In this document: piece after piece, positions 34,312 through 41,730 of the stretch
Numbering within the stretch: position 1 is the stretch's first letter
Layout of the letters: each line of letters begins with the position of its first letter
DNA from: Pirellulales bacterium
Lineage (GTDB): Bacteria > Planctomycetota > Planctomycetia > Pirellulales > S012-138
Assembly: GCA_028066245.1 (NCBI GenBank)
Contig: JALCBR010000035.1
Location: 1-41,730, forward strand
Length of the DNA: 41,730 nucleotides
Reading direction: 5' to 3'
Translations under genes and position numbers: made by a program
The notes under the pieces: generated by a model
What the model was told of the DNA's origin: nothing
Databases searched by the model: none
What the model saw: the letters and a program-made list of their open reading frames with translations, nothing else

Positions 34312-35691
34312 ATGTCGCTCTTTGAACAGGAAGAAGAAAACAATCGCACGGCGGCCCAGCCGTTGGCACGGCGAATGCGTCCCAGGTCGCTGGACGAATT
34401 CGTCGGCCAACAGCATTTCCTCGGACCAGGCAAGTTGCTCCGCCGGTTGCTGGACGCCGACCGACTCTCCTCGTTGATCTTCTTTGGACCTCCCGGAACG
34501 GGGAAGACTACGCTCGCGCATTTGCTGGCGCAGGAAAGCGCCGCAACTTACACTCAGCTCAACGCCGTGACCTCAGGCGTCAAAGACTTGCGGGAGCTGC
34601 TCATAAGCGCCCAAAACCGTTTGGCGGCGGGGTCCGGCCGGACGTTGTTGTTCATCGACGAGATCCACCGCTTCAACAAAGCCCAACAAGACGTACTCCT
34701 GCCTGATGTGGAAGACGGCACTGTCATCCTTGTCGGCGCGACAACGCAAAACCCTTTCTTTGCTTTGACCAATGCATTGGTCAGCCGCAGCCAGTTGTTT
34801 CAGTTTGAGGCCCTAACGCCGGACGAAATCAAAGACTTGCTGCGGAGAGCCGCCGCCGACCGTGAACGTGGATTGGGTGCGACGGCAATCACCCTCCACG
34901 ATGATGCATTGGACTACCTGGCTGAAGTCTGCGATGGCGACGCTCGGCGAGCGCTCTCGGCGCTTGAGGTGGCCGTGCTTTCCAGTCAGGAACAATCCGT
35001 CGAACTTACGCGCGAGTTAGCCGCCGAGTCAGTGCAGCGGAAGGCTATTCAATATGATGTCACCGGCGATGAGCATTACGACGCCGCCAGTGCACTGATC
35101 AAAAGCGTGCGCGGCAGCGACGCGGATGCCGGAATCTACTGGTTGGCCCGAATGCTGGAAGGCGGTGAAGACGTCCGCTTTCTGGCTCGACGGCTGGTGA
35201 TCTTGGCCAGTGAGGACATCGGCAATGCCGACCCACACGCTCTGCCACTGGCGATTGCCACCATGCAAGCGTGCGAATTCGTGGGACTGCCGGAGTGCCA
35301 GCTTTCGTTGGCGCAAGCCGTGACATATCTCGCGCTGGCGCCCAAATCCAACGCGTCAACAACGGCGATTGCGGAGGCCAAGCAAGATCTGCGCGACGGC
35401 CGCGTGCTGCCAGTTCCCGTGCATCTGAAGGATCGGCACTACAGCGGTGCAGAGCGGTTGGGGCACGGCGAAGGTTATCATTACTCGCACAACGCTGAAG
35501 GCGGGATTGCAGCGCAGGATTACCTGGGAGTTGATCGAGAGTATTATCGGCCGGTTGGCAGGGGCTTTGAGAAAGAACTGATGTCACGGATCGAACGAAT
35601 TCGTCAGCGATTGCGATCCAAAGATGAGTCTTCACACGGCTCGGAAAGAGCTTTGCATCAAAGCAACGATGCTCCAGAGACTGACCGCTGA
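34312..35691 (+). CDS. rarA: Replication-associated recombination protein A (RarA/MgsA) AAA ATPase
   Basis: A 459-residue clamp-loader-like AAA+ protein that acts at stalled replication forks, opening dsDNA ends and working with RecA-dependent repair. Walker A is IFFGPPGTGKTTLAH (about residue 57), Walker B is TLLFIDEIHRFNKAQQD, and the sensor-1 ATTQNPFFALTNALVSRSQL region is canonical. GDARRALSALEVA holds the sensor-2 Arg. The C-terminal MgsA tetramerisation domain is present (EHYDAASALIKSVRGSDADA; DRHYSGAERLGHGEGYHY). The last 35 residues are extra and polar. Start ATG 34312. The gene is probably transcribed alone. Confidence 0.94.
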   Translation: MSLFEQEEENNRTAAQPLARRMRPRSLDEFVGQQHFLGPGKLLRRLLDADRLSSLIFFGPPGTGKTTLAHLLAQESAATYTQLNAVTSGVKDLRELLISAQNRLAAGSGRTLLFIDEIHRFNKAQQDVLLPDVEDGTVILVGATTQNPFFALTNALVSRSQLFQFEALTPDEIKDLLRRAAADRERGLGATAITLHDDALDYLAEVCDGDARRALSALEVAVLSSQEQSVELTRELAAESVQRKAIQYDVTGDEHYDAASALIKSVRGSDADAGIYWLARMLEGGEDVRFLARRLVILASEDIGNADPHALPLAIATMQACEFVGLPECQLSLAQAVTYLALAPKSNASTTAIAEAKQDLRDGRVLPVPVHLKDRHYSGAERLGHGEGYHYSHNAEGGIAAQDYLGVDREYYRPVGRGFEKELMSRIERIRQRLRSKDESSHGSERALHQSNDAPETDR

Positions 35692-35723
35692 AGACGATTT
35701 CTTGATCGAAAGGGAAAGCACAA

Positions 35724-36380
35724 GTGCCCTGGTACTATCAGCACGGTGAAGGAGAGATTGTTGGCCCGGTTTCGCTGGAAGCATTGCGAGAATTGGCCCA
35801 GCGGGGAGATGTTGACGGCAACACACAGGTTGGCTTTGCCGATAACGAAGATCAACCTACTGAGTGGCAGCTTGCGCATTTCGTGAGTGATCTGGAGTTG
35901 CCAAGATCGAGCATTCCGAAAGTGCCTCGTCCTCCCCAACTGCCTTCACAACGGATTTCTCAAGATGACCCGTTGCTGCAAGGTTCTGTTCGTCAGCAGC
36001 AGCAACCAATCTCTGTTCCCCAGTCCGCCGGTGTCGGGGTTCTGCCAATTCTGGCACTGGTCGCTGGCATAATCGCATTTCTTGTCGGCGGCGTTGCGAT
36101 GGCTTTCGAGCTGCTCACCAGCCTTGAAACCGTTGGGGTCGATGGGATCTTCGTGTGGATGTCGCAATACTCAGTTGTGGTTGTCTTCGCGGGAATTCTG
36201 ATGGTGATCATCGGGCTGTTGTGTGAGCTTGTGAGAGTCAATCGAGCACTCCTGGTCGCAGCTCGACGTCAGCTGGCATCACATGAACAATCGGCTGTGG
36301 GTAACGCGCCCGTACAGGTTCAGCAAAAGCAAAGTCAGAACCAATTCCCACCACCCGGCAAGAAACACCCGTTGGATTGA
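35724..36380 (+). CDS. GYF_2-domain membrane protein
   Basis: A 218-residue protein starting at GTG 35724 with AGGGAAAG just upstream. The first 55 residues are a GYF_2 domain (PWYYQHGEGEIVGPVSLEAL, then a second W near residue 48), which in other systems binds proline-rich ligands. A Pro/Gln linker follows, then two hydrophobic helices (VGVLPILALVAGIIAFLVGG; YSVVVVFAGILMVIIGLLC) and a Gln-rich tail. Such GYF proteins are abundant in planctomycetes. It starts 33 bp after the rarA stop and is followed by the pterin-synthesis genes; the stop is 92 bp before the DHPS-like start. Its role is unknown. Confidence 0.8.
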   Translation: MPWYYQHGEGEIVGPVSLEALRELAQRGDVDGNTQVGFADNEDQPTEWQLAHFVSDLELPRSSIPKVPRPPQLPSQRISQDDPLLQGSVRQQQQPISVPQSAGVGVLPILALVAGIIAFLVGGVAMAFELLTSLETVGVDGIFVWMSQYSVVVVFAGILMVIIGLLCELVRVNRALLVAARRQLASHEQSAVGNAPVQVQQKQSQNQFPPPGKKHPLD

Positions 36381-36472: not shown

Positions 36473-37906
36473 ATGTCTCAAGAGCACATCCATTTTGTCA
36501 CAGGGCGTCTCGCGGAGCCTTCCCTCCGCGCTGTGTTGCAGCCACTGGCGTCGGCAGTCGGCTTTGAGTATTCGTTGAGCGTCCTCAATATCACCGTAGC
36601 AGCGCTCCTGACGACCGATTGGATTGCCCCCCGGCTGCAACCACCTGTTGCATCTAACCGGATCCTGTTGCCAGGCTATTGCCGTGGCGACACCAGCACC
36701 TTGGTGGAAAAGTTTCGTTGCCCAGTAGAATTTGGCCCCAAAGATCTGCGTGAGCTGCCCACGTATTTTCAACAGGCAAGCATGGACCAGCTCAACGGCT
36801 ACGACATTGAAATTATTGCTGAGATCAACCATTGTCCTCAGCTCTCAATGGCTGAAGTCCTGGCGGAAGCGGCACGGTTACAGTCTGCCGGCGCCAATGT
36901 GATCGATGTCGGCTGCGAGCCCGGAAACACGTGGAGCGGAGTTGGCGAATGCGTGAAGGAGCTTCGCGACGCAGGATATCGAGTCTCGATCGACAGCCTG
37001 AACCCCAAAGAGATCAGCGCAGCAGCGAGTGCCGGCGCCGAGTTGGTGTTATCTGTCAATTCCAGCAATCGTGCTTCGGCAAGTGGTTGGGGCTGCGAGG
37101 TCGTCGCAATTCCTGATGATCCCAGCGATTTAAATTCTCTCGACGAGACTTGGGGATTTCTCACACAAAGGAACATTCCCACGCGAATCGATCCCGTACT
37201 GGAGCCGATCGGATTTGGGTTTGCGCGCAGTTTGGAGAGATATCTTGAAGCCCGCCGACGCTGGCCCCAGGCGGAAATGATGATGGGGATTGGCAACCTG
37301 ACTGAGTTGACCGATGTCGATTCTGCTGGCGTGAATGTCACGTTGTTGGGATTTTGCCAGGAGCTGGAAATCCGTAGCGTGCTGACCACGCAAGTCATCA
37401 ATTGGGCTCAGTCAGCCGTGGCAGAATGTGACCTCGCCCGACGGCTGGTCTTTCAAGCCATTAAAGCTCGTGTGCTGCCCAAACACACAGCGCCTCAGTT
37501 GATCATGCTTCGCGACCCCAAGTTATTGCGGGCAGCGGATGCGGAGTTGGCCGAGATGGCCGCCAGGCTCAAGGACAACAACTACCGAATCCTGCTAAGT
37601 GAAAGTGGCGAAATCCACCTGCTGGCTGCCGGCATCCACCTGCGAGGAACCAACCCGTACGTCATCATGCAGCAGTTGTTTGACCGTGGACCAAGCAACT
37701 TGGATTCGGCACACTCGTTCTACCTAGGCTATGAAATGGCCAAAGCCGTGACCGCGCTGACGCTCGGCAAGAATTATGAACAGGATGAAGCATTGAATTG
37801 GGGACTGTTGACACAGGCAGAAAGTGTAAAACGATTGAGTCTTGATCACCAACCGAGACGACTGGGAAGCAAGTCTCGGCAAACACGCGGAGAGCAGGAC
37901 TCATGA
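36473..37906 (+). CDS. Dihydropteroate synthase-like protein of the H4MPT cofactor cluster
   Basis: A 477-residue protein from ATG 36473; the frame is open further to 36377, but the family begins at EHIHFVTGRLAEPSLRAVL. The TIM-barrel part contains IIAEINHCPQLSMAEVLAEA and AGANVIDVGCEPGNTW, echoing the dihydropteroate synthase motif for the pterin site, and further on GYRVSIDSL. Homologues of this type are found in bacterial H4MPT-linked C1-transfer clusters and in archaea; their precise step is unproven, but a role in joining or modifying the pterin/arylamine parts is likely. It overlaps pabB by ATGA (37903-37906). The context with PabA, PabB and MptG strongly supports H4MPT synthesis. Confidence 0.8.
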   Translation: MSQEHIHFVTGRLAEPSLRAVLQPLASAVGFEYSLSVLNITVAALLTTDWIAPRLQPPVASNRILLPGYCRGDTSTLVEKFRCPVEFGPKDLRELPTYFQQASMDQLNGYDIEIIAEINHCPQLSMAEVLAEAARLQSAGANVIDVGCEPGNTWSGVGECVKELRDAGYRVSIDSLNPKEISAAASAGAELVLSVNSSNRASASGWGCEVVAIPDDPSDLNSLDETWGFLTQRNIPTRIDPVLEPIGFGFARSLERYLEARRRWPQAEMMMGIGNLTELTDVDSAGVNVTLLGFCQELEIRSVLTTQVINWAQSAVAECDLARRLVFQAIKARVLPKHTAPQLIMLRDPKLLRAADAELAEMAARLKDNNYRILLSESGEIHLLAAGIHLRGTNPYVIMQQLFDRGPSNLDSAHSFYLGYEMAKAVTALTLGKNYEQDEALNWGLLTQAESVKRLSLDHQPRRLGSKSRQTRGEQDS

Positions 37907-39381
37907 CGGTTCAGCGTCATCAGCCCGAATCACGCGGCGCCACTGAGCAGAGTTTTCCCGGATTCGTCCAAGAACTGCGCCCAGCGCCTCAGGCAGAAGA
38001 TTTGCTTGAGTGTTTTGCCCAACTGCCGCATTGCGTGTTCTTTGATAGCGCATTGCGTCATCAGCGGCTGGGTAAATACTCATTTCTCGCCGCGGATCCA
38101 TTTGCGTTCATCACGGCGAATGCGGATCAGTCGCACGCCGCCAAAATGGATGCATGGGAAAAGCTACAAATGGCTTTGGCTAAGTTTGCTTCGCCTGCGA
38201 TCACCGATTTGCCGCCTTTTCAGGGAGGCGCCGCTGGCGTTCTGTCTTATGAGCTGGGAAGCCTTTGGGAGCGGGTTCCCCTTCCAAGGTATAACGAGTT
38301 CAAAACGCCATCACTGGCGATCGGCTTATATGACGTCGTCTTGGCCTTTGATCATTTGCGCGACCAAGCGTGGCTGATCTCGCAGGGATTTCCCGAAACC
38401 GATTCGGCAGCCCGTGCTCAACGTGCGCATGCCAGGGGTAGGGAATTTCTTCAGTTGATCCAAGGGCGGAAACTCGGCGCAAAAGCCAAGCGAGCAGAGA
38501 AACCATCCCTGCTTTCTGGTAATCAGCTTGCGCCGCAGTTTCCCATAGGGCAAAGCGGAAAGTTGACAAGCAATTTCTCAAAGGAAAGGTATTTACACGC
38601 TGTCCAACAGGCGATTGACTACATCTTTGCCGGTGACATCTTTCAGGTGAATCTCTCGCAACGACTGTTGCATCCTGCCACGCTGTCAGGCGTTGAACTC
38701 TACGCCAGGCTGCGGCGGACCAATCCAGCGACCTTCGCAGGCTACTTTGATGGAGGGAGCTTTGAGATCATCAGCGCGTCGCCGGAAAGATTCCTGTCGA
38801 TCACTGGCGGTGACGTCGAGGCTCGACCAATCAAAGGCACCCGTGGCCGCCACCGAGCGCCGGAAGCTGACCTGTTCGCTGGAAGCGAACTGCAAGCCAG
38901 CGAAAAGGATCGCGCGGAAAACGTCATGATCGTTGATCTGTTGCGAAATGATCTCTCTCGTGTTTGCGAACCCGAAAGCGTGCAGGTGACACAGCTCTGT
39001 CAATTGGAGACCTATCAATACGTCAAGCATCTGGTGTCGGCCATTCGCGGCCGTCTGCGCCCTGAATTTTCACCGCTTGATTTACTAGCCGCCTCATTTC
39101 CAGGAGGTTCGATTACGGGAGCGCCCAAGGTTCGGGCGATGGAGATCATCGCGGAGTTGGAGCCGACTGCGCGGGAGTCGTACTGCGGATCGCTGGGTTA
39201 CATTGGGTTTGACGGCGCGATGGATACCAGCATCTTGATTCGTACGATCTCCGCCTCGCACGGCTGGTGGCAATTGCCTGTTGGCGGCGGTATCGTGGCT
39301 CAGAGCGATCCGCTGAAGGAATACGAGGAAACCTGGCACAAAGCCCAAGGCTTACTGCACGCGCTCGACCAATTCCCATAG
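37903..39381 (+). CDS. pabB: Aminodeoxychorismate synthase component I
   Basis: A 492-residue chorismate-utilising enzyme. It joins ammonia (from PabA) to chorismate to give 4-amino-4-deoxychorismate, the precursor of p-aminobenzoate. The active-site segment is EARPIKGTRGR, where Lys in PIKGT marks PabB (TrpE has PIAGT). SASPERFLS, AENVMIVDLLRNDLSRVC and FPGGSITGAPKVRAMEII are the other conserved blocks, and GGGIVAQSDPLKEYEETW is the C-terminal one. The start ATG overlaps the stop of the DHPS-like gene. In this setting its product probably serves both folate and H4MPT synthesis. No lyase (PabC) is in the window. Confidence 0.94.
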   Translation: MTVQRHQPESRGATEQSFPGFVQELRPAPQAEDLLECFAQLPHCVFFDSALRHQRLGKYSFLAADPFAFITANADQSHAAKMDAWEKLQMALAKFASPAITDLPPFQGGAAGVLSYELGSLWERVPLPRYNEFKTPSLAIGLYDVVLAFDHLRDQAWLISQGFPETDSAARAQRAHARGREFLQLIQGRKLGAKAKRAEKPSLLSGNQLAPQFPIGQSGKLTSNFSKERYLHAVQQAIDYIFAGDIFQVNLSQRLLHPATLSGVELYARLRRTNPATFAGYFDGGSFEIISASPERFLSITGGDVEARPIKGTRGRHRAPEADLFAGSELQASEKDRAENVMIVDLLRNDLSRVCEPESVQVTQLCQLETYQYVKHLVSAIRGRLRPEFSPLDLLAASFPGGSITGAPKVRAMEIIAELEPTARESYCGSLGYIGFDGAMDTSILIRTISASHGWWQLPVGGGIVAQSDPLKEYEETWHKAQGLLHALDQFP

Positions 39382-39548
39382 CGAGCAACGCAGCAATTGT
39401 GCAGAGCATTCGAATGACGGAACACCCCGTCAAGCGGCGGATGGACACGCGTGCTATCGCCATGTAGAACCGATTTCCGCACTCCGCCGTTTCGGCAATC
39501 GGTGGTCTTCGCACCGCACAATGCATGGCGTCTATCCGGTAAATTGGC

Positions 39549-40211
39549 TTGATCCTGTTGATCGACAATTACGACAGCTTCGCCCACAACCTTGCACGGT
39601 ACTTTGTGCGATTGGGCCACGAGACGCGTGTGGTCCGCAATGATATGATCAGCGCTCGCGACGTCAAGGACATGTCTCCGCAGGCCGTTGTGCTCTCACC
39701 CGGACCATGTGGTCCGGCAGATGCAGGCAGTTGCATTGACGTCGTACGTGCGTGCTGGCGAGAACTCCCGATCCTTGGTGTTTGTCTGGGGCATCAAGCC
39801 ATTGCGGCAGCGTTTGCCGGGAAGATTGAACGAGCGCCTCAACCGTGGCATGGTCGCAGTTCCACAATCGTTCATAAACAAACAGGCGTTTTTGCCAACT
39901 TGCCCAATCCACTCGAAGTTGGGCGATATCACTCATTAGCGGTTGCCAAAGGATCGCTACCTGCGGAGATGCACGTCACGGCCCACACGGCCGATGGTGA
40001 AATCATGGCGATCCAGCACACGGCGCGACCGCTGGTGGGTCTCCAATTTCATCCAGAATCAGTTCTGACCGAACATGGGCGAGAAATCCTCGCGAACTTC
40101 TTGCGAATGTCTGGGCTGCCTGTCACGCAGGAGAGTGGATCACCGGAAGTTTTGAGTGAGCCGGCTCCTGAGTCCCGGCTCGCGCGGGATGGAGCGCCCG
40201 TCAGTTTCTGA
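39549..40211 (+). CDS. pabA: Aminodeoxychorismate synthase glutamine amidotransferase
   Basis: A 220-residue class I glutamine amidotransferase. It hydrolyses glutamine and passes ammonia to PabB. Typical blocks are ILLIDNYDSFAHNLARYF, VVLSPGPCGPADAG, PILGVCLGHQAIAAAFAG (nucleophile Cys) and the HPES end (LQFHPESVLTEHG). The only usable start is TTG 39549, because a stop lies at 39540-39542 in this frame. It follows pabB by 167 bp. PabA and TrpG cannot be separated with certainty, but the neighbours favour p-aminobenzoate synthesis. The tail after residue 190 is variable. Confidence 0.92.
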   Translation: MILLIDNYDSFAHNLARYFVRLGHETRVVRNDMISARDVKDMSPQAVVLSPGPCGPADAGSCIDVVRACWRELPILGVCLGHQAIAAAFAGKIERAPQPWHGRSSTIVHKQTGVFANLPNPLEVGRYHSLAVAKGSLPAEMHVTAHTADGEIMAIQHTARPLVGLQFHPESVLTEHGREILANFLRMSGLPVTQESGSPEVLSEPAPESRLARDGAPVSF

Positions 40212-40261
40212 TATGACAAGCTGATCGTACCACACCTTCCAACACCAAGTAACCGCTTGTC

Positions 40262-40882
40262 ATGACAACGCCGCTTTCCTGGCCGATTTGTGAAGGTCTC
40301 GTTGTGACGGATAACGAATCCGGCCAGCCACATCTCGCGGTGATGGGACCGGCGATCTCGCCTGACGAAGCAAATCTCACCTTGCGGCCCTTTCGGACTT
40401 CGACGACGTATCACCATTTGCAACGAAAACGCCATGGCGTTTTTCACGTGACCGATGACGTGGAACTTTTGGTGCGAGCCGTCACCGGCGAATGCGCGGA
40501 GGCTCCGAAATTTGAACGCACGCCCGGAGGATCCGGGTGGTTGCTGCCAACGGCATGCCGCTGGATGGAGTTTGAAGTCACGGAGATTGATGACTCACGG
40601 CAGCGATCCGTCATGCAGGCGCGTGTGGTTTCAGCCCAGTGGCTGCGAAACTTCTTTGGTTTCAATCGTGCGAAGCATGCCGTCATTGAGGGAGCCATTC
40701 TTGCGACTCGCCTCGGATTACTTGACGCGGCGTACATTCACGAAGAATTGGCGCGGTTGGCCCCATTGGTCGAGAAGACAGGCACGGAAGTGGAGCATCG
40801 AGCCTTTGATCTGCTGCGCGAGTTTGTCGTCAAAAACACTTGCGAGACGGAACTTGGTCAGCGTGTCAACGTTTCGCGCTAG
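40262..40882 (+). CDS. DUF447-family protein of the H4MPT cluster
   Basis: A 206-residue protein. ICEGLVVTDNESGQPHLAVMG, the central NLTLRPFRTSTTYHHLQRKRHG and GVFHVTDDVELLVRAV, and the CRWMEFEVTEIDDS region give the flavoprotein-like split-barrel pattern of DUF447 (longer runs abbreviated: LTLRPFRTSTTYHHL). Members recur in archaeal and bacterial H4MPT-linked C1 clusters, next to RFAP synthase. The C-terminal AAYIHEELARLAPLVEKTG helix is characteristic. It begins at ATG 40262, 50 bp after pabA, and is followed 33 bp later by mptG, so it is part of the operon. A step in pterin cofactor synthesis or protection is likely, but unproven. Confidence 0.82.
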   Translation: MTTPLSWPICEGLVVTDNESGQPHLAVMGPAISPDEANLTLRPFRTSTTYHHLQRKRHGVFHVTDDVELLVRAVTGECAEAPKFERTPGGSGWLLPTACRWMEFEVTEIDDSRQRSVMQARVVSAQWLRNFFGFNRAKHAVIEGAILATRLGLLDAAYIHEELARLAPLVEKTGTEVEHRAFDLLREFVVKNTCETELGQRVNVSR

Positions 40883-40915
40883 CGCGGTGGCTCAGAGGTT
40901 CGATCGAGACCGTCC

Positions 40916-41730
40916 ATGTCATCAACCCACCAGCAAGCCGATCACCCAATAAGACCAGTTGAAGCGCATCGTGTTGCGACGGGGGCGCGGCTGCACTTCG
41001 GTCTCTTCTCTCCAGGACGTGCTGCCGGCAGATCGTTCGGTGGCGCAGGCATGATGGTTGACTCGCCAGGTACGGCCATTACAGCGCGGCCAGCAGAAGA
41101 ATTCTCAGTTCGCGGACAAGAAGCGAGCGGAATCGCCGCGTTGGCTGATCGGATTGCGCAGCACTTTTCAAGACCGCTCCCCCTTGTCGAGCTGGCTGTG
41201 GAATCACGGGCGCCGAGACACGCTGGATTGGGTTCCGGCACGCAATTGGCAATGTGTGTTGCAAAGCAGCTCGTCAATGCCTGGCGAACCTCTTGTGACA
41301 ATCACACCTTGGCGCTCGCTGCTTGTCGCGGAAAACGGTCCGCGATTGGCATCCACGGATTTGAACAAGGTGGATTCCTGATTGACGCAGGCAAGAAGGA
41401 CAATGACCAAATCGCACCGTTGATTGATCGCATCGAGTTCCCTGCCAACTGGCGCATCGTGCTGATTGATGTCAGCGACAATGCTGACGGAGTCATACCC
41501 TCGGCTAAACAACGACAACCAAGTTTTGTCGGCGTTTCGGGAGCAGATGAGGCCGAAGCTTTCGATCGACTTCCGCCTGCATCGTTGGAACGGACGGAAA
41601 CCTTACGCCGGGAAGCGACTGAAGTTCTCGCGCCTGCTGTACGGGCGAAGAACTTCGAGGATTTTTCTCAAAGCGTCACCCGTTTTAACCGCATGGCCGG
41701 AGAGTGTTTTGCGCCGGTGCAAGGTGGCAC
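40916..41730 (+). CDS. mptG: Beta-ribofuranosylaminobenzene 5'-phosphate synthase (RFAP synthase), 3' end outside window
   Basis: The frame from ATG 40916 is open to the end of the window (271 codons), so the gene is truncated by the boundary. The protein begins RVATGARLHFGLFSPGRA and GGAGMMVDSPGTAI, has the GHMP-type Gly-rich loop APRHAGLGSGTQLAMCVA, and GKRSAIGIHGFEQGGFLIDA and WRIVLIDV, which are the core of RFAP synthases. RFAP synthase condenses p-aminobenzoate with PRPP, releasing CO2 and PPi, in the first committed step of methanopterin-type cofactors. It follows the DUF447 gene by 33 bp. With PabA and PabB upstream, the cluster supplies and uses its own p-aminobenzoate. Confidence 0.9.
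   Translation, partial: MSSTHQQADHPIRPVEAHRVATGARLHFGLFSPGRAAGRSFGGAGMMVDSPGTAITARPAEEFSVRGQEASGIAALADRIAQHFSRPLPLVELAVESRAPRHAGLGSGTQLAMCVAKQLVNAWRTSCDNHTLALAACRGKRSAIGIHGFEQGGFLIDAGKKDNDQIAPLIDRIEFPANWRIVLIDVSDNADGVIPSAKQRQPSFVGVSGADEAEAFDRLPPASLERTETLRREATEVLAPAVRAKNFEDFSQSVTRFNRMAGECFAPVQGG

Follow-up and report, generated by a model that had tools for sequence, protein, structure and literature searches.

The operon at the end of the contig

Tetrahydromethanopterin (H4MPT) serves methanogens, methylotrophs and many planctomycetes as a carrier of one-carbon units. Here we describe a set of five adjoining genes that genome comparison places in the synthesis of this cofactor, at the right end of a planctomycete contig (C53). 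This contig of 41,730 nucleotides was analysed as a whole and is referred to below as the window; it belongs to a genome of 4.94 Mb that is 97.5% complete (G000). On its plus strand lie, in this order, genes for a dihydropteroate synthase-like (DHPS-like) protein, PabB, PabA, a DUF447 protein and MptG, the ribofuranosylaminobenzene 5′-phosphate (RFAP) synthase. All five open reading frames are confirmed, in the order and on the strand that an earlier, sequence-only reading had given them.

The DHPS-like gene (36473..37906) encodes a TIGR00284 relative in which Pfam recognizes DUF6513 (E 2.6e-22), a Pterin_bind TIM barrel (E 2.8e-6) and PterinBD-DUF4346 (E 5.4e-7). An earlier TTG at 36377 is a possible start, but the relatives begin at the ATG. 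Its end shares an ATGA, a 4-nt overlap, with pabB (37903..39381), which encodes aminodeoxychorismate synthase component I (Chorismate_bind, E 1.8e-88; PIKGT motif). PabA, the glutamine amidotransferase component (39549..40211; GATase, E 9e-57), scores 203.4 bits with trpG_papA, above the cut-off of 121.05, and is followed by the DUF447 protein (40262..40882; DUF447_N and DUF447_C), of the flavin mononucleotide (FMN) split-barrel family, and by the N-terminal 271 residues of MptG (40916..41730, the window end; NF040726 and TIGR00144). The tight packing that had been claimed for these genes holds for the ATGA overlap and for the gaps of 50 nt (PabA-DUF447) and 33 nt (DUF447-MptG), but not for the 167 nt that separate PabB from PabA (39382-39548).

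The mptG gene is interrupted by the contig end, and its last ~76 residues are found on contig C8 (final ~220 bases, minus strand); the ends of C53 and C8 have 9 bp in common and the frame runs on, giving an MptG of 347 amino acids. Apart from this C-terminal piece, MptG is single in the genome. On C8, mptG is followed by a convergent gene and is therefore the last of the operon. Further one-carbon genes, which the sequence-only reading had proposed to look for beyond 41730, were not found immediately 3′ of mptG on C8. The truncated MptG scores 105.4 bits with NF040726 (E 3.2e-30; cut-off 328) and 85.6 bits with TIGR00144 (E 3.5e-24), also under the cut-off, and the intact planctomycete relatives reach 101-197 bits with NF040726.

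Gene order and fusions in relatives

The same run of five genes, from the DHPS-like protein to MptG, is seen again in many named planctomycetes. Among 80 DUF447 loci from named public genomes, chosen as those most similar to a query with the window at its head and hence biased toward its relatives, MptG is encoded in 60 (fused to DUF447 in 4), PabA in 43, PabB in 38, the DHPS-like protein in 29 and a short-chain dehydrogenase/reductase (SDR) in 21. The complete order SDR-DHPS-like-PabB-PabA-DUF447-MptG occurs in 12 loci among those with enough flank, Lacipirellula limnantheis (L207) being one example. Judged by this comparison of loci, the arrangement is not due to chance.

Furthermore, DUF447 and MptG form a single reading frame at L168, L172, L210 and L216 and in the surveyed genomes G048 and G097; such fusions span L082:9381-10931 and, on the minus strand, L030:1489-3027. 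That orphan genes of this type and pab genes recur in H4MPT clusters had been asserted beforehand, and both parts of the assertion find support: DUF6513 adjoins DUF447 in annotated proteobacterial clusters, which in some cases also contain mch, fae and MptG, and a common association of pabB with the synthesis of H4MPT is reported for methylotrophs (PMC3615186).

Evidence for the H4MPT pathway

The pathway genes of this genome were looked up one family after another. Mch is encoded on C25 (E 2.5e-109), Ftr on C95 (E 1.8e-60) and a CitG homologue on C116, while FolP and MetH lie on C115 and C66, respectively. The sequence-only reading had assigned the locus to H4MPT, a call that a genome devoid of other H4MPT or one-carbon genes would have contradicted; mch and ftr are there, and with the CitG homologue and MptG they bear the assignment out.

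A phyletic survey of the families DUF447, MptG, DUF6513 and Mch over 148 planctomycete genomes points in the same direction. Strong matches to all four occur in the identical 22 genomes, which represent 8 family-level lineages; the exceptions are a weak DUF447 match in G093, a weak MptG match in G094 and, as the only strong one, G114, which has DUF6513 alone. CitG follows the same partition (22/22 pathway genomes vs 0/17 others). Shared ancestry inflates such counts, so that they are to be taken as support and not as proof. In the control genomes, DUF447 and MptG match the same four archaea, among them Haloferax volcanii. Altogether, the pathway and the linkage of its genes, as established by comparison, indicate that the operon belongs to H4MPT synthesis.

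H. volcanii, which is reported to be a folate user (PMC8305020), has matches for the DUF447, MptG, CitG and Mch families and none for DUF6513 or TIGR00284.

In several relatives the CitG homologue adjoins mch. In more distant planctomycetes (L118, L119, L120 and L121), mch, a RimK-type ATP-grasp gene, CitG, the SDR, the DHPS-like protein and PabB often stand in one run, and since these genes so often run together, both groups of H4MPT genes may originally have formed one. The CitG-like protein at L118:8517-9938 (G097) carries a C-terminal extension that by eye resembles 6-pyruvoyl-tetrahydropterin synthase (HGHNYR motif).

A DHPS-like barrel apparently constrained with the pathway

Compared with TIGR00284, the DHPS-like protein scores 152.6 bits, under the cut-off of 256.65. 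As a single sequence it has no match in the PDB by phmmer; as a profile, its best matches there are dihydropteroate synthases. Profile comparison with the FolP proteins of the genomes gives a probability of 97% (E 2.8e-11, 142 columns), in which IDVG, SIDS and DPVLEPIGFGF align with the FolP segments IDIGG, SIDT and DPGIGFGK. The aspartates of SIDT and DPGIGFGK we take to be pterin-site residues of dihydropteroate synthase. The FolP loops that handle p-aminobenzoate (pABA) and pyrophosphate (NVTPDSF and SRKGF) are not visible, by inspection, in the DHPS-like alignment, and the protein is therefore called DHPS-like and not FolP. A structure model (pLDDT 84) shows eight strand-helix units over residues 113-332.

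An instructive case is provided by G114, a genome of the same order without mch, mptG or DUF447, which nevertheless keeps overlapping DHPS-like and PabB genes (L090:7180-10196). At the positions that are invariant in the other 22 DHPS-like proteins, the G114 protein agrees for the most part in the N domain (10 of 12) and the C domain (18 of 20); in the barrel it keeps fewer than half (23 of 49), the losses including E117, N119, D145, D174, D240, N275 and E278. No other row of the alignment shows such a loss. Given that it is the genome without the pathway that has lost these residues, the barrel site appears to be constrained solely where the H4MPT pathway exists. Both observations, the retention of the pterin-site aspartates and their loss in a pathway-less genome that keeps the gene, make condensation of the dihydropterin pyrophosphate with RFAP the probable role of this protein.

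DUF447 and its possible role in opening the ribose

The DUF447 protein is assigned to the FMN split-barrel fold by sequence similarity: PNPOx_N is matched by 22 of 76 family members (best E 1.8e-4) and Flavin_Reduct, weakly, by 4 of 76. Solved structures exist for the relatives 3b5m, 2iml, 2nr4 and 2ptf, the first of which matches the profile with E 3.7e-56, and the structure model of the window protein has a pLDDT of 94. In the set of papers searched, DUF6513 is nowhere mentioned, and of the seven that mention DUF447 none concerns H4MPT by its title.

Of all the links within the operon, that between DUF447 and MptG is the closest, as seen in their fusions, their adjacency and their co-presence in H. 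volcanii without DUF6513 or TIGR00284. The sugar of RFAP is a furanose, whereas the cofactor carries a ribitol, and a two-electron reduction is therefore required along the way. A member of an FMN family so regularly paired with MptG is for this reason a candidate for the FMN-dependent reductive opening of the RFAP-derived ribofuranose to ribitol, an assignment that we regard as tentative and somewhat short of an even chance.

A specialised SDR, candidate for the last reduction

The SDR usually heads the operon in relatives; in this genome it lies elsewhere, near a contig end outside the window (C150:11785-12540, L282:9268-10062). It forms a distinct family, with 331-407 bits in 21 of the 22 pathway genomes, the best score in non-pathway genomes being 173 (0/17 others). 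The classical Ser-Tyr-Lys set is not present in it: the Tyr is replaced by Phe in 20 of 21 members and the Ser region by Trp-Asp, while the Lys is kept.

For beta-proteobacteria, AfpA/DmrB has been proposed as the enzyme that reduces dihydromethanopterin (PMC6193120), and Afp has been stated not to be recognised in planctomycetes (Chistoserdova, PMC5020050). Indeed, no AfpA/DmrB match above the cut-off was obtained in 39 planctomycete genomes, the weak matches spanning only parts of the model, and AfpA/DmrB was on this ground set aside as the planctomycete reductase. In three of four proteobacterial clusters the gene directly 5′ of DUF6513 encodes a flavoprotein that matches TIGR02700/TIGR02699 below the cut-off (DmrX/AfpA group), and in the fourth this gene is annotated as a kinase. 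Since position, phyletic profile and the AfpA gap concur, the SDR may be the enzyme that replaces AfpA/DmrB in the last step, dihydromethanopterin reduction, the odds being a little under even.

One pABA supply for two cofactors

Two chorismate-binding enzymes are encoded in this genome, the window copy with PIKGT and a copy on C10 with PLAGT. The Lys of this motif is typical of PabB and the Ala of TrpE; the window protein is hence the only PabB found in the genome, and the C10 protein is a TrpE. Nine other PabBs from such clusters likewise carry PIKGT, a tenth being too incomplete to show the motif, and the second copies examined in pathway genomes carry Ala at that position. Each of the 22 pathway genomes has two chorismate-binding matches, though in G106 both look like halves of one gene divided over contig ends. 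Since PabB is single and FolP is encoded separately, the gene content implies that pABA from this operon must be used for folate as well. PabA, in turn, could also serve TrpE.

The proposed pathway and its alternatives

As read from gene content and conservation, the operon represents the non-pterin arm of the synthesis of H4MPT (or its dephospho form) together with its joining to the pterin; the scheme as a whole, with the roles set out below, has a probability of about 0.6. According to this proposal, PabA and PabB would make aminodeoxychorismate for pABA, common to H4MPT and folate, and MptG would form RFAP from pABA and phosphoribosyl pyrophosphate, with decarboxylation. Condensation of RFAP with 6-hydroxymethyl-7,8-dihydropterin pyrophosphate would be the task of the DHPS-like protein, which would combine a pterin pocket of the DHPS type with a new acceptor site. 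Using bound FMN, DUF447 would convert the C-linked ribofuranose to ribitol by reductive ring opening, the p-amino group aiding C-O cleavage at the benzylic carbon; the CitG homologue would probably attach the second ribose, and the SDR would carry out the final reduction of dihydromethanopterin. That all three orphan assignments hold jointly, the SDR (Tyr-less and Asp-containing) being a third kind of dihydromethanopterin reductase with no relation to the other two, DUF447 an FMN ribose-opening enzyme and the DHPS-like protein the condensing enzyme, is rather unlikely at present; if true, three open steps of H4MPT synthesis would gain candidate enzymes.

Several observations weigh against this proposal. 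Planctomycete MptG homologues fall far under the NCBIfam equivalog cut-off, and the Arg equivalent to R26, the pABA-loop Arg of the characterised Methanothermobacter enzyme (PMC6787355), is kept in the window MptG but missing in two relatives of the same order (L073 and L074). The window DUF447 itself has no PNPOx_N match at E<=1, and flavin reduction or a part in assembly could instead be the function of DUF447. The SDR is missing in G122, which has the rest of the pathway; moreover, the search for known reductases covered AfpA/DmrB, DmrA and the dihydrofolate reductases being further candidates for this step. Lastly, the methanogen protein MJ0301, of metallo-beta-lactamase fold, is annotated for the condensation step.

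As to the identity of the pathway and the destination of its pABA, two other readings may be considered. The locus might be a folate operon with unusual relatives, in which the MptG-like protein and DUF447 serve a side branch other than H4MPT: the pab genes belong to folate synthesis, MptG stays under its equivalog cut-off, and other aromatics are used by related enzymes that make C-glycosides, ForT among them (PMC8183095). Such a reading has to face the strict co-occurrence with Mch, the presence of Ftr and of a separate FolP, and the homologous genes within annotated mch-fae clusters, and we consider it highly improbable. Hardly more probable is the view of the sequence-only reading that pabA and pabB form a supply reserved for H4MPT, with pABA passed straight to MptG. 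The tight clustering of the pab genes with mptG speaks in its favour, but the only PabB of a genome that also has FolP has to provide for folate, so that neither a dedicated supply nor a direct feed of RFAP synthase is supported; the other pathway genomes examined look alike, and G114, without mptG, Mch and DUF447, retains the same pabB.

Within an H4MPT operon, the individual roles might also be distributed otherwise. That another enzyme, for example an MJ0301-like one, performs the condensation, leaving the DHPS-like protein as a pterin-binding carrier, a methyltransferase-like protein or a regulator, would agree with the fact that the two FolP loops are not seen on inspection of the alignment, and with the inclusion in the Pterin_bind family of methyltransferase domains such as that of MetH, found in the same genome. 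This possibility is rather unlikely: the profile matches FolP, dihydropteroate synthases are its closest counterparts of solved structure, the acceptor site would be expected to change if RFAP replaces pABA, and it is precisely the pathway-less genome in which the pterin residues have been lost. Somewhat less likely still is an exchange of the two reductions, in which DUF447 would reduce dihydromethanopterin, or supply such a reductase with reduced flavin, and the ribose would be left to the SDR. The FMN split-barrel family of DUF447, the missing AfpA of planctomycetes and the nature of SDRs as nucleotide-dependent reductases would fit; nevertheless, the proteobacterial DUF447 genes lie close to AfpA/DmrB-type flavoproteins, so that the two are not alternatives to each other, DUF447 is fused to MptG and not to late-pathway genes, and H. 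volcanii has DUF447 and MptG while being reported as a folate user. For the last step, the main alternative to the SDR is a dihydrofolate reductase.

Flanking sequence

Upstream of the operon, the window encodes a RarA/MgsA-type ATPase and a GYF_2-domain protein (34312-36380), both apparently unrelated to it; the stop of the latter overlaps the TTG from which the DHPS-like gene might alternatively begin. Promoter and terminator scans of the locus gave no signal higher than that of shuffled sequence.

Comparison with known systems

The closest counterparts are the proteobacterial "archaeal-like" clusters for H4MPT and methylofuran (orf19-orf20-afpA-orf21-orf22, with mch, fae, mtdB and mptG), such as that of Azoarcus sp. 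KH32C pAZKH. In these as in the planctomycetes, DUF6513 adjoins DUF447, with MptG, Mch and CitG-like genes close by, and orf19 and orf20 (PMC3615186) would, from gene order, be the counterparts of DUF447 and DUF6513. The proteobacterial clusters, however, have an AfpA/DmrB-type flavoprotein before DUF6513 (3 of the 4 viewed) and no pabA or pabB, whereas in planctomycetes the SDR precedes DUF6513, pabB-pabA is inserted, and MptG comes right after DUF447, to which it is sometimes fused. The flavoproteins AfpA, DmrB and DmrX, as well as DmrA, share with the SDR the proposed last step, and the flavoprotein occupies the same slot 5′ of DUF6513; the SDR nevertheless belongs to another family than either the FMN flavoproteins or the dihydrofolate reductase-like DmrA.

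With the bacterial FolP, the DHPS-like protein shares a TIM barrel and aligned pterin-site motifs; it differs in its additional DUF6513 and DUF4346 domains and in its diverged acceptor loops, FolP itself being encoded separately in the genome. With the archaeal dihydropteroate synthase-like proteins of TIGR00284 it shares the barrel and the C-terminal region, the matches to that family reaching 133-153 bits, under its cut-off. The DUF447 proteins of solved structure belong to the same family as that of the window and are all described as uncharacterised or hypothetical.

In 2011, the non-pterin part of the pathway was thought to comprise at least nine steps, and about seven methanopterin proteins were then unidentified (PMC3087415). 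In Methylobacterium extorquens, deletions of mch are obtained only together with a loss of mptG (PMC4169470). Specific roles are proposed here, from sequence comparison, for the DHPS-like protein, DUF447 and the SDR. Through the conservation of the operon, the fusion of DUF447 with MptG and the loss that occurred naturally in G114, each orphan is directed to one reaction, and as each thereby receives a single candidate reaction, the gaps in H4MPT synthesis become directly testable.

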